Origin: Telluribacter roseus
GTDB taxonomy: Bacteria; Bacteroidota; Bacteroidia; Cytophagales; Spirosomataceae
Direction: 5' to 3'
Assembly: GCF_017355915.2 (NCBI RefSeq)
Contig: NZ_JAFEUV020000001.1
Span: 434,001 to 498,000 of the forward strand
Length of the DNA stretch: 64,000 nt
In this document: positions 33,185-36,884 of the stretch, piece by piece
Position numbering within the stretch: the stretch's first letter is position 1
How the letters are laid out: every line of letters begins with the position of its first letter
Made by a program: the position numbers and the translations under genes
Notes under the pieces: model-generated
Database searches by the model: none
Told to the model about the DNA's origin: nothing
Seen by the model: only the letters and a program-made list of their open reading frames with translations

Positions 33185-35023
33185 TTAGAAATCAACGTCC
33201 AGTCCCAGCGATTGCTGCAGCTCCCGGAGGTAGGGGTTTTTCTCGGCCATGTAGTTGAATTTCTCCTGTGGCGTGTAAGGCATACGCTTTACTTCCTGCG
33301 GAGCTACCCGCGGCTCTATGTTCAGGGATGACTCCTGAAAGCGATGACGCAGGAATGTCAGCAGGTCTCCCCTCAGTGACTGCATGGTCTCTTTCTGCAG
33401 GTCATTATCCAGCGCCATACGGATAGTAGTACCATCCAGCTCTACCTCCCGGTTCAGGGTTACTTCTTCGGTAATAGAATCACGCTCCTGCTTCCGTATT
33501 TCCGCAAATTCCTTCCAGGCAGCATTCAAATTTTCTACGGTAAGCGGAGTAGTCTTTTCCGGATGCAGGTACTGGGGGCTGCTGCTTTCTTTAACGGGTA
33601 CTGTTTCCCGGATATGATCTTCGGAAAGGGTAGGTGTAAGGAGCTGCATGGTACTCCGTAGCTTACTCGTTACGGGTCGGGCAGGAGGTGCTGCCGTAGC
33701 TACTCCCTGAACGGATGGGGCGGGTACGGGCATAGCTGGAGTAGTGGCTACGGGAGCCGGGGCCACAGGGGGGGCTGGCATCGGAGGAATAGCCACAGGG
33801 GCGGGCGTACCATTACCATTGCTTTTGGCGTAAGCCGGAGGGGCCGGCTCGGTGGTTACCGGCTGGCGAGGCTCATCTTTTTTTTTTGCCGTTTCGTCAA
33901 CGGCTACCAGATTGTCAAGATTCAGGACATGGCTTAGGTTCGCCAGCTTCATCAGACACAGCTCCACGTGCAGGCGCTGGTTCTTGGCCGCCTTGTAGTT
34001 GATATCGCACTGGCTCCCCACGCTCATGGCCGACAGCAGGAAGCTCATCGGTGCCTGGGCCGACTGCGACAGGTACTTCTGGTGGGCAGCCGTAGATACC
34101 TGTAAGAGCGGTATGGTAGCCGGGTCTTTGCACACCAGCAGGTTGCGGAAGTGCTCCAGCAGACCTACCACAAACAGGTGCCCGTCAAAGCCCTTACGTA
34201 CTATTTCATCAAACAGTACCAGCGTCCTGGCTACGTTACCTTCCATCAGCGCATCCGTCACCCGGAAGTAGTAGTCGTAGTCGAGTATGTGCAGGTTTTC
34301 GAGTACAGCCTGGTAGCTGAGCTGGCTCCCGGTCGAGAACGTTACGTTCAGGTCAAACATCGAGAGCGCATCCCTGAGTCCGCCGTCGGCTTTCTGACCA
34401 ATGAGTTCTAGGGCTTCGCGTTCGGCCTGAATGCCTTCCTTCTGGGCGATTCTGTCCAGGTGGTCGGCAATGTCGGTAGAACGGATGCGGTTGAAGTCAA
34501 AGATCTGACAGCGCGACAGGATCGTGGGCAGGATCTTGTGCTTTTCGGTAGTAGCCAGGATGAATATGGCGTAGCTAGGGGGCTCTTCCAGCGTTTTCAG
34601 GAATGCGTTGAAAGCCGCCTGCGACAGCATGTGTACCTCATCAATAATGTAGATCTTATACGTACCGGTATGGGGTGGGTACCTGACCTGGTCAATGAGG
34701 TTACGGATATCTTCTACGGAGTTGTTAGACGCCGCATCAAGTTCGTGAATATTAAAGGAAGCATTATTCTGGAAGCTCACACATGACTCACACTCACCGC
34801 ACGACTCTACATCATCACCCAGGTTCTGGCAGTTGATGGTTTTGGCCAGAATACGGGCACAGGTAGTCTTACCAACCCCACGCGGACCGCAGAACAGAAA
34901 GGCCTGCGCCAGGTGATTGGTACGGATTGCGTTTTTTAAGGTAGTAGTAATATGTGATTGCCCCACCACCGAATCAAAGGTGACCGGGCGGTATTTTCGT
35001 GCCGATACGACAAAATGCTCCAT
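33185..35023 (-). CDS. dnaX: DNA polymerase III subunit gamma/tau, with A10 slippage site
   Basis: A 612-residue clamp-loader ATPase that places the beta clamp on DNA. Walker A GPRGVGKTT at 46-54, a zinc knuckle with Cys65, Cys75, Cys78 and Cys81, Walker B YIIDEVH at about 125-131 and the SRC arginine finger at about 168 are all present. Domains I-III end near 375, then a proline/alanine-rich linker (380-450) and a tau-specific C-terminal part. Codons 379-382 contain ten consecutive A (33878-33887); a -1 shift or one-base gain there gives KKKR and an immediate TGA, a 383-residue gamma-like protein. A promoter-like TTTG-N19-TAACTTGC lies just upstream. Confidence 0.95.
   Translation of the reverse strand: MEHFVVSARKYRPVTFDSVVGQSHITTTLKNAIRTNHLAQAFLFCGPRGVGKTTCARILAKTINCQNLGDDVESCGECESCVSFQNNASFNIHELDAASNNSVEDIRNLIDQVRYPPHTGTYKIYIIDEVHMLSQAAFNAFLKTLEEPPSYAIFILATTEKHKILPTILSRCQIFDFNRIRSTDIADHLDRIAQKEGIQAEREALELIGQKADGGLRDALSMFDLNVTFSTGSQLSYQAVLENLHILDYDYYFRVTDALMEGNVARTLVLFDEIVRKGFDGHLFVVGLLEHFRNLLVCKDPATIPLLQVSTAAHQKYLSQSAQAPMSFLLSAMSVGSQCDINYKAAKNQRLHVELCLMKLANLSHVLNLDNLVAVDETAKKKDEPRQPVTTEPAPPAYAKSNGNGTPAPVAIPPMPAPPVAPAPVATTPAMPVPAPSVQGVATAAPPARPVTSKLRSTMQLLTPTLSEDHIRETVPVKESSSPQYLHPEKTTPLTVENLNAAWKEFAEIRKQERDSITEEVTLNREVELDGTTIRMALDNDLQKETMQSLRGDLLTFLRHRFQESSLNIEPRVAPQEVKRMPYTPQEKFNYMAEKNPYLRELQQSLGLDVDF
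33872..33889 (-). promoter_or_regulatory. dnaX: Candidate slippage/frameshift signal in dnaX
   Basis: On the coding strand the codons are gca aaa aaa aaa gat gag. An extra A in the transcript, or a -1 ribosomal shift, yields aga then tga. A 6-bp stem AGCCGG/CCGGCT with a 5-nt loop lies about 30 nt downstream and might act as a stimulator. Compare the known gamma-producing slippage in dnaX of Thermus (A-run) and frameshift in Escherichia coli. Confidence 0.6.
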
Positions 35024-35027
35024 GGCT

Positions 35028-35058
35028 GCAAGTTACTGCCGCGGCGTGGATTTTCAAA
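35028..35058 (-). promoter_or_regulatory. Candidate dnaX promoter
   Basis: On the minus strand TTTG (35055-35058) is followed after 19 bp by TAACTTGC (35028-35035), which resembles the -33 and -7 boxes, although the -7 deviates from TAnnTTTG in its last bases. It would start transcription very close to the dnaX ATG at 35023, implying a very short leader. Confidence 0.4.
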
Positions 35059-35881
35059 GCTTCTTCTTGTCGATCAGCTCATAAATCCGGACGTAATCCA
35101 CGACCATTTTCTGGGGGAAAATACTGTCGTCCACTCCCTTTTCGCCGCCCCAGGTACCTCCGATAGCCACATTAAGAATCAGGTGAAAAGGATGGTCAAA
35201 GGGCCACTCCTGCCACCGATATGATTCTTCCCGCTTATAGGTAAGATTTGTTTTTCCATCTACCTTTAAAGTGATACGATCGGGGGTCCATTCACAGGTA
35301 TAAATATGGTAGTCAGAGGAGGCACTTTTGATTACCATGCTATTACCTCTGGTAGGAAAGGCCTTTGTATGGACATTACTATACACCCGGTTCTGATCAA
35401 AACCTACGTGCGCAACCAGATCCATACCACCATTGTCGGGCCAGAACTGCTCGCCGTATGACTGCTGGCTTGCCAACGCCCAGATGGCGGGCCATGTACC
35501 CCTTCCGCTGGGGAGCTTGGCCCGTACCTCCACCTTACCATAGGTAAAGTCGCCCTTGCCCCTGTTGACCAGCCTGGCTGAACTGTAGGCGCGGTTGCCG
35601 GAGGCTTCCTTACGGGCTTCAATGGTGAGCATACCATCTTCTACCCGGGCATTTTCCAGTCTATCGGTGTAGTTCTGTAGCTCGTTGTTGCCCCAGCCGT
35701 GTCCGCCCAGGTCGTAGTCCCACTTCTCCGGATCAGGCTTACCCTGGTAGCTGAACTCGTCGCTCCACGTGGGCGTACTACTAAAGGTATAGTTGTCGGA
35801 ACTGGTTATTTCTTTCTCTTTGCAGGATATAATGAGTAGTGCAAGTGAGCAGGAGTAGAGTAGAGGTAGGATCTTCATCAA
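35054..35881 (-). CDS. GH16-family lipoprotein lacking both catalytic glutamates
   Basis: A 275-residue lipoprotein (lipobox IISC, Cys20) with the jelly-roll fold of glycoside hydrolase family 16: TWSDEFSYQGKPDPEKWDYDLGGHGWGNNELQNYT, KLPSGRGTWPAIWAL, CEWTPDRI and YVRIYEL. The catalytic motif should read E-I-D-I-M-E; here it is G-M-D-L-V-A (Gly152, Asp154, Ala157), so nucleophile and acid/base are both missing while the rest of the fold is kept. The loop after HTKAF is five residues shorter than in the neighbour at 36018, which is otherwise closely similar and lies directly upstream on the same strand. It may bind beta-glucan without cutting it. Confidence 0.9.
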   Translation of the reverse strand: MMKILPLLYSCSLALLIISCKEKEITSSDNYTFSSTPTWSDEFSYQGKPDPEKWDYDLGGHGWGNNELQNYTDRLENARVEDGMLTIEARKEASGNRAYSSARLVNRGKGDFTYGKVEVRAKLPSGRGTWPAIWALASQQSYGEQFWPDNGGMDLVAHVGFDQNRVYSNVHTKAFPTRGNSMVIKSASSDYHIYTCEWTPDRITLKVDGKTNLTYKREESYRWQEWPFDHPFHLILNVAIGGTWGGEKGVDDSIFPQKMVVDYVRIYELIDKKKL

Positions 35882-36017
35882 ATATAGTGAGTGATACAGG
35901 TGTTTTCAATGGAATGAAAGAGCTCCTTGAAGTTGCTGTACCATTAATCGTGCCATATTTTAGAAGGATACAAATGTCCCTTGGTTGTGGCCGTCCACTC
36001 TACTCCTGATGCTAGTC

Positions 36018-36884
36018 CTACTGCTTATTTACCAGCTCATATACCCGCACGTAGTCCACCACCATTCTCTGTGGGTAGACCGTCTCGTCCACGCCTTTCT
36101 GACCACCCCAGTTACCCCCGACGGCTATGTTCAGGAGCAGGTGAAAGGGCTGGTCGAAGGGCCACTCCTGCCAGCCGTACTGAGCTTCCTTTCGGAAAGT
36201 AAAGTAGTCTTTGCCGTCTACCAGCACCGTCACCCGATCGGGCGTCCACTCACAGCTGTACACATGAAAGTCCTCGGAGGCTCCCTCTACCATTACATTG
36301 TTACCCTTGTTGGTTTTGATGGAGTGGTTAAAGGCTTTGGTGTGGATGTTGCCGTGTACCCGGTTCTGGTCAAAGCCCACGTGCTCCATGATGTCGATCT
36401 CGCCGTTGTCGGGCCAGAACTTATCACCGTAGGTACTTTGGCTCGCCAGCGTCCAGATGGCCGGCCAGGTACCCCGGCCGGTAGGTAGCTTGGCCCGTAC
36501 TTCAAACTTGCCGTATTTGAAGTCACCCTTGCCCTTGGTTACCAGCCGCGCCGAGCTGTACTGGCGGTTGGCGGAGGCTTCCTTACGGGCTTCGATGATT
36601 AGCATTCCGTCTTCTACCCGGGCATTTTCCAATCTATCGGTGTAGTTTTGTAACTCATTGTTGCCCCAGCCGTGTCCGCCCAGGTCGTAGCTCCACTTCT
36701 GCGGATCAGGTTTTCCTTTATAACTGAACTCATCACTCCACGTGGGCGTACTGCTGAAGGTATATTCTTTGGCCGGACCAGGAGTGGTCACCAGGGATGG
36801 TAAGGTATTTGTTTCGTTTCCGCGGAAGGCCAGCAATAGTGATAGTAAAGAAAAGGCGCCACTAAGTACTATTATTCGTTTCAT
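36018..36884 (-). CDS. GH16 endo-beta-glucanase (laminarinase-like)
   Basis: A 288-residue secreted glycoside hydrolase family 16 enzyme. The signal peptide spans about residues 1-20, then the catalytic jelly roll with the intact motif GEIDIMEHVG (Glu162 nucleophile, Asp164, Glu167 acid/base). WPDN and HGNIHTKAF around it are typical of beta-1,3-glucanases, suggesting laminarin-type substrates. It would act outside the inner membrane. It is a tandem duplicate of the gene at 35054, sharing long identical stretches, and that copy has lost the catalytic residues. It is divergent from the GSCFA gene. Confidence 0.92.
   Translation of the reverse strand: MKRIIVLSGAFSLLSLLLAFRGNETNTLPSLVTTPGPAKEYTFSSTPTWSDEFSYKGKPDPQKWSYDLGGHGWGNNELQNYTDRLENARVEDGMLIIEARKEASANRQYSSARLVTKGKGDFKYGKFEVRAKLPTGRGTWPAIWTLASQSTYGDKFWPDNGEIDIMEHVGFDQNRVHGNIHTKAFNHSIKTNKGNNVMVEGASEDFHVYSCEWTPDRVTVLVDGKDYFTFRKEAQYGWQEWPFDQPFHLLLNIAVGGNWGGQKGVDETVYPQRMVVDYVRVYELVNKQ

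Follow-up and report, generated by a model that had tools for sequence, protein, structure and literature searches.

A putative slippage site in dnaX of Telluribacter roseus and an apparent exchange of recoding signals for two clamp-loader subunits in Bacteroidota

The window analysed here is a stretch of 64,000 nucleotides from Telluribacter roseus (Spirosomataceae), and it carries dnaX on its minus strand. The genome gives eight matches to the NCBIfam dnaX profile, only one of them above the cut-off; this is the present gene, and dnaX is single-copy here. The features of the locus, in window coordinates, are the following.

33185..35023, minus strand: dnaX, full-length (tau-like) open reading frame of 612 aa, identified from the ORF and the NCBIfam dnaX N-terminal profile
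33920..34960, minus strand: clamp-loader part that would be common to both products, with coordinates derived from Pfam matches at residues 22-368
33878..33887, minus strand: A10 run, the proposed slippage site (T10 on the plus strand), beginning at the last base of codon 379
33873..33875, minus strand: stop codon TGA in the frame entered by gain of one A or by a -1 ribosomal shift, for a 383-residue product, as read from the sequence
33856..33858, minus strand: stop codon TAA in the frame entered by loss of one A (or gain of two), for a 388-residue product in the case of loss
33185..33877, minus strand: tau-specific linker and C-terminal tail in the zero frame, residue 383 onward, including the stop codon

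Also on the minus strand, at 35054-36884, lie two adjacent similar ORFs of 275 and 288 aa, by their motifs putative duplicated family 16 glycoside hydrolases.

The coding strand around the run reads ACG GCA AAA AAA AAA GAT GAG; the ten A's start at the last base of codon 379 and continue to the end of codon 382, which places them at about 62% of the gene (codon 379 of 612). The original prediction had placed an A10 run within 33872-33889 of a gene for 612 residues, with a stop after residue 383 upon gain of one A; the run, exactly at 33878-33887, the product length and the TGA at 33873-33875 all agree with it. The claimed position at the end of domain III is likewise borne out, the Pfam domain III match (PF12169) ending at residue 368 and the run beginning in codon 379. 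Solved gamma/tau chains align to DnaX residues 4-321 or 4-361, and one set of entries to 4-441. As computed from the sequence, tau has 612 residues and 68.2 kDa, the product with one extra A ends ...AKKKR-stop (383 residues, 42.8 kDa) and the product with one A fewer ends ...AKKKMSLASR-stop (388 residues, 43.3 kDa). Both shifted frames past the run therefore close early, after residues 383 and 388, the latter closure being absent from the original prediction.

Gamma forms of DnaX are made by frameshifting, slippage and proteolysis, reversed arrangements are mentioned as well, and the place of gamma in the replicase has been controversial, according to the accessible text of PMC5009743. In Thermus thermophilus, dnaX undergoes transcriptional slippage on an A9 run, with tau as a single ORF and nearby stops in both other frames (accessible parts of PMC5009743 and PMC1088944). 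An A-run of nine or more within a single tau ORF, 3' of the clamp-loader domains and with nearby stops in both other frames, is also present in T. roseus dnaX. The two cases differ in that the run is A10 in Bacteroidota and A9 in Thermus, in that it lies at about 62% of the gene in T. roseus and at seven-eighths in Thermus (PMC1088944, accessible part), and in that slippage has been measured in Thermus and is predicted in T. roseus. The shorter product of the E. coli dnaX -1 frameshift ends right after the clamp-loader domains, at a stop in the -1 frame (PMC5009743, accessible part), as would the shorter product of T. roseus.

The A10 run is most probably a selected recoding site through which a single dnaX would give two clamp-loader subunits. 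RNA polymerase would slip on the run, producing dnaX mRNAs whose runs differ in length. A run of 10 A's in the message, or of three more or fewer, would encode tau of 612 aa or one residue more or less, and other run lengths would encode gamma-like proteins of about 383 or 388 aa, which would retain the clamp-loading domains but not the linker and tail. In known gamma/tau systems the tau tail contacts polymerase and helicase, and gamma lacks these contacts; by analogy, the short form of T. roseus would join the clamp loader without them. Part of the gamma may also come from ribosomes shifting by -1 on A_AAA_AAA. Both the slippage and the short protein are what we infer for T. roseus.

Conservation was assessed in 321 dnaX loci remaining after removal of duplicates. 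Named dnaX records contributed the best 80 of at least 594. In the host family (Spirosomataceae) 56 of 61 genomes matched, and 51 loci were used, five of the 56 being left out. In the phylum sample 292 of 296 genomes matched, of which the 30 best-scoring and 80 chosen to spread genera were taken, and in a Bacteroidales family 59/61 and 97/101 genomes matched in overlapping sets, from which a subset was taken. Non-dnaX hits (L002, L003), duplicates and release-factor loci were dropped before counting. The samples are non-random, shared ancestry makes the counts of loci non-independent, and run lengths may be in error in those loci that come from metagenome assemblies. The site was defined as at least nine A's within 60 codons past residue 352, inside the plain frame; L015, where an A10 run lies about 75 codons further on, was counted as lacking it.

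A run of nine or more A's (A9+) is present at the site in 195 of the 321 loci, with lengths of 9 (38 loci), 10 (144), 11 (11), 12 (1) and 13 (1). It was found in 65 of 80 named records, in 51 of the 55 loci that make up the remainder of the class sample, in 16 of 52 from the phylum's other classes and in 25 of 83 from the Bacteroidales family. The alignment of relatives proposed as a check thus favoured the original prediction in the rest of the class, in one other species of the genus of T. roseus and in 38 of the 51 host-family loci. The expectation that relatives keep the run did not hold for the remaining 13 of the 51, ten of which have a -1-like signal; overall, no A9+ run occurs at the site in 126 of the 321 loci. 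Where present, the run lies in all three codon phases (108, 54 and 33 loci), the encoded peptide differing accordingly, and its phase changed at least 34 times on a FastTree tree of the N-terminal domains.

The run could in principle be a product of chance, or be kept at the protein level as part of a lysine-rich linker, with no dual product; this is very improbable. Within the 64-kb window, the only A9+ run on either strand is that of dnaX (two overlapping 9-mers), and shuffled windows have a mean of 0.41 A9 matches, 8 of 100 reaching two. One such run per window is by itself mildly unusual, which leaves room for chance, and it is the comparative evidence that marks the dnaX run as non-random. 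The 6.3-Mb genome has 49 overlapping A9 matches, collapsing to 43 runs; three are of length 10 or more, and the two others of these are in no ORF of 80 aa or more. Among the 42 other genomic A9+ runs, 20 were examined for ORFs (ATG-start or contig-edge, at least 80 aa), and 9 of the 18 examined runs of exactly nine A's fall inside an ORF of this kind on either strand, so that location in a reading frame also favours chance. Against it, the DNA of the same 195 loci outside the site has 26 A9+ runs in 1.41 Mb (both strands), from which 0.0033 are expected per 180-nt window at the site; the original prediction had likewise held the location to be unlikely for a random A-run. No A9+ run occurs in 204 kb of N-terminal dnaX coding sequence of these loci, and run length peaks at 10 at the site, whereas elsewhere in the same loci runs of nine outnumber runs of ten by 23 to 3. 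Preservation in all three phases, with different peptides, also argues against a protein-level cause, as does the occurrence of the run in 15 of 40 genes of at least 55% GC (outgroup classes left out). In the clamp-loader part of T. roseus dnaX, which has 53.5% GC, only 40% of lysine codons are AAA. The comparative counts already contradict both the chance and the lysine-linker explanations.

The frames around the run give further evidence for recoding. In the 131 A-run loci with tau in frame, the frame entered with an extra A stops within 5 codons in 95%, compared with 36% and 30% for two control sets of positions taken from these genes, which bears out the predicted immediate stop in relatives. 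The other shifted frame stops within 5 codons in 72% (controls 27% and 25%), and both are closed within 14 codons in 126 of the 131. In tblastn comparisons with the C-terminal 132 residues, the tail matched in the zero frame in 101 of the 131 loci and in another frame in 1, and 29 had no match at E<1e-3.

The other 64 A-run loci have the reverse arrangement, in which the plain frame stops just past the run (gamma) and tau lies in a shifted frame, reached by one extra A in 62 and by two extra or one fewer in L083 and L122. The T. roseus tail found the shifted-frame tail by tblastn in 38 of the 64; for the 26 without a hit at E<1e-3, the evidence for a tail is the long open frame. Among the 62 shifted-frame tails, compared in pairs of similar length, six pairs with Ks <1 have Ka/Ks of 0.04-0.33, and the next, more distant and saturated pairs range from 0.39 to about 1. 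The tails of the close pairs are thus under purifying selection, so that a shift must occur there if tau is made, and the 64 gamma-in-frame relatives further support the gamma/tau interpretation.

A GeneTack survey reported 17 two-ORF dnaX genes, nine of them with A10, and proposed slippage; its three named genes with shorter runs are from Chlorobi-type organisms (PMC3711429, accessible part). The 64 gamma-in-frame relatives are of this two-ORF type, and T. roseus dnaX, a one-ORF gene with tau in the zero frame, differs from the type reported in the accessible part of that survey. We infer that the two types interchange. At least 21 changes of arrangement are needed on the tree, compared with 53.6 with shuffled labels, so that the arrangement is clade-wise stable as well. 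It differs within genus codes g23, g14 and g156; in the last of these, from the host family, tau is in frame in L309 (A10) and gamma in L336 (A9). A single-A change, which would break an ordinary gene, is tolerated here, as is predicted of a slipping site.

Homopolymers also slip in replication, and A9 and A10 forms do occur within genera, so that the run might be a mutational hot spot for phase variation, with DNA slippage switching tau on or off between cells. This is very improbable, since dnaX, an essential gene, is single-copy in T. roseus, the close pairs of shifted-frame tails are under purifying selection, and other relatives have non-homopolymer signals at the same place.

Slippage of RNA polymerase on the A10 run is very probably the main route to the shorter product. 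It is favoured by the length mode of 10 and the independence of codon phase, by the early stops in both other frames and by the fact that an SD-like stimulator or 3' structure is generally lacking. An unlikely alternative is that ribosomes slip by -1 on A_AAA_AAA and stop at the TGA, giving gamma as in E. coli, where dnaX has an SD-like stimulator about 10 nt 5', an A_AAA_AAG heptamer and a 3' stem-loop. The T. roseus run does present the ribosome-slippable A_AAA_AAA in the zero frame, but A_AAA_AAG is absent and no SD-like motif (GGAG, GAGG or AGGA) is found 5' of the run, in which the site differs from that of E. coli. Such motifs are commoner upstream of A-runs generally, in 36 of 195 loci (18%), than at control positions (7%), which would suit a ribosomal shift, yet only 3 of the 38 A-run loci of the host family have one. 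The 63 nt shortly 3' of the T. roseus run (33812-33874) fold somewhat better than shuffles (-19.8 kcal/mol, z -1.5, 15 of 200 shuffles as good), which may suit a contribution of the ribosome. RNA structure past the run was not above controls in a random draw of 90 of the 195 A-run loci, and 3' structure was rejected as a general stimulator on this ground. Seven A's would moreover suffice for a -1 shift, yet 10 is the length that is kept; the two shifted frames are mostly closed; and L083 and L122 need a shift opposite to that of the other gamma-in-frame loci. The original prediction had offered gain of an A by polymerase slippage or a -1 ribosomal shift; the first is the better supported, though not proven, and the second less so. 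An Rfam scan of the gene region gave one below-cut-off match, to Xist exon 1 (an animal lncRNA), which was taken as chance.

An argument for -1 shifting at this place comes from the host family itself, where 10 of the 13 loci without a run (L306, L307, L312, L313, L330, L331, L332, L337, L343 and L347) have GGAGG beginning 15 nt before an in-frame heptamer, G_GGA_AAG in six and A_AAA_AAG in four. This signal, lacking in T. roseus, resembles that of E. coli. The -1 frame stops within 4 codons in eight of the ten, and in L332 and L347 it is the plain frame that ends immediately, with tau in -1. The invariable GGAGG at a fixed distance also counts against ribosomal shifting at the A-runs, which are unlike these loci, and the +1 frame is closed within 5 codons in 1 of the 8 compared with 94 of 131 A-run loci (Fisher p=0.0014). 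Among the 96 loci with neither run nor UAG element (described below), the rule for the -1 signal picks out these 10 and leaves 86, a count that is descriptive because the rule was drawn after seeing the loci; a GGAG-like upstream motif is part of the rule, and the fixed spacing of 15 nt is not. On the tree the ten do not form one group but lie among the A-run loci of the family, with at least two changes, and a placement of the ten as a sister clade apart from the A-run loci was therefore dropped. The number of lysine tRNAs was considered as a means of telling slippage from a ribosomal shift, an idea taken from PMC5009743; a tRNA-Lys(CTT)-like pattern gave one match in each of nine Bacteroidales genomes, and tRNA-like-looking matches to it (by eye) among 21 host-family genomes only in G415.

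Several other loci without a run have short motifs at this place. L217, L218, L220 and L223 read CCC AGG CAA AGC [AT]TA with a stop in the +1 frame, by eye a possible +1 frameshift site, and L232 (CCC TCG), whose plain frame stops and whose tail lies in +1, may be another. GGG C[GA]T AGC, with TAG in the -1 frame, was seen by eye in L031, L035, L069 and L100, which have Bacteroidaceae-like dnaX, and L219 has a T9 run at the site. The translation of L069 near its contig end reads LSLIHI, which resembles sequencing adaptor left in the assembly.

A third type of signal appears in Bacteroidales. The plain frame stops early in 101 loci, and in 30 of these the same frame stays open for at least 150 codons directly after the stop; this criterion is independent of the UAG element and recovers exactly the 30 loci first picked by motif (L043:2599-2658, L060:2599-2658 and 28 further loci). 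Each of the 30 has UAG as its early stop, with ATT (24) or ATA (6), GCn, and AGA (19) or AGG (11) directly after it, and the open stretch is 186-254 codons long. These codons are unusual, since the same genes use AGR for 5% of Arg and ATC for 62% of Ile, and tau itself ends in TGA (21), TAA (6) or TAG (3). In 27 of the 30 loci, compared with 13.9% of control windows, a GC-rich hairpin (3 bp or more) is present 9-26 nt past the UAG, at a position chosen after viewing the alignment; covariation in it is slight, by eye, and the folding energy of the 50 nt past the UAG is not exceptional. By tblastn, 21 of the 30 post-UAG tails match tau without a change of frame (nine gave no hit), and eight tail pairs with Ks <1 have Ka/Ks of 0.10-0.61. 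Of these genes, 28 have at least 50% GC. The 30 loci form one clade together with L257, so that these counts too are not independent.

Programmed readthrough of the UAG looks like the simplest explanation of the 30 loci. Reading of UAG as a sense codon in cells devoid of a release factor was rejected, as release factor 1 scored above the cut-off in 12 of 12 genomes tested, and separate translation of the tail was judged unlikely, the first in-frame ATG being 23-209 codons downstream of the UAG and the first ATG, GTG or TTG 11-90 codons. L257 has a shortened copy of the element with its tail now in the +1 frame, and may be broken or a further variant. The early-stop loci with neither A-run nor UAG element are seven: L069 (at a contig end), L076, L232, L241, L257, L332 and L347.

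The finding is real, and its interpretation as a case of the known gamma/tau slippage kind is, on comparative grounds, well supported. For Bacteroidota at large it appears fairly likely that the need for two DnaX forms has been constant while the device has been repeatedly replaced in the same gene region, by A10 slippage (195 of 321 loci), by an SD-like motif with a heptamer for a -1 shift (ten host-family loci) and by UAG readthrough (one Bacteroidales clade, 30 loci). Compared with the slippage site itself, this apparent exchange of devices, seen at the level of sequence, is the more surprising. In the literature searched, which mostly did not extend to subscription papers, no account was found of dnaX UAG readthrough, of the one-ORF site in Bacteroidota or of its interchange with the two-ORF type, and the species of PMC3711429 may include Bacteroidetes. 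If true, UAG readthrough would be a route to gamma and tau with no description in that literature.

Annotation by plain ORFs would give only the short form for gamma-in-frame and UAG-type genes. The within-genus pairs that differ by one A, together with the slippage, frameshift and readthrough types, would allow transcriptional and translational routes to one outcome to be compared. The gamma-making signal is kept while the plain-ORF product changes and the device is apparently swapped, which argues that both forms of DnaX are under selection.
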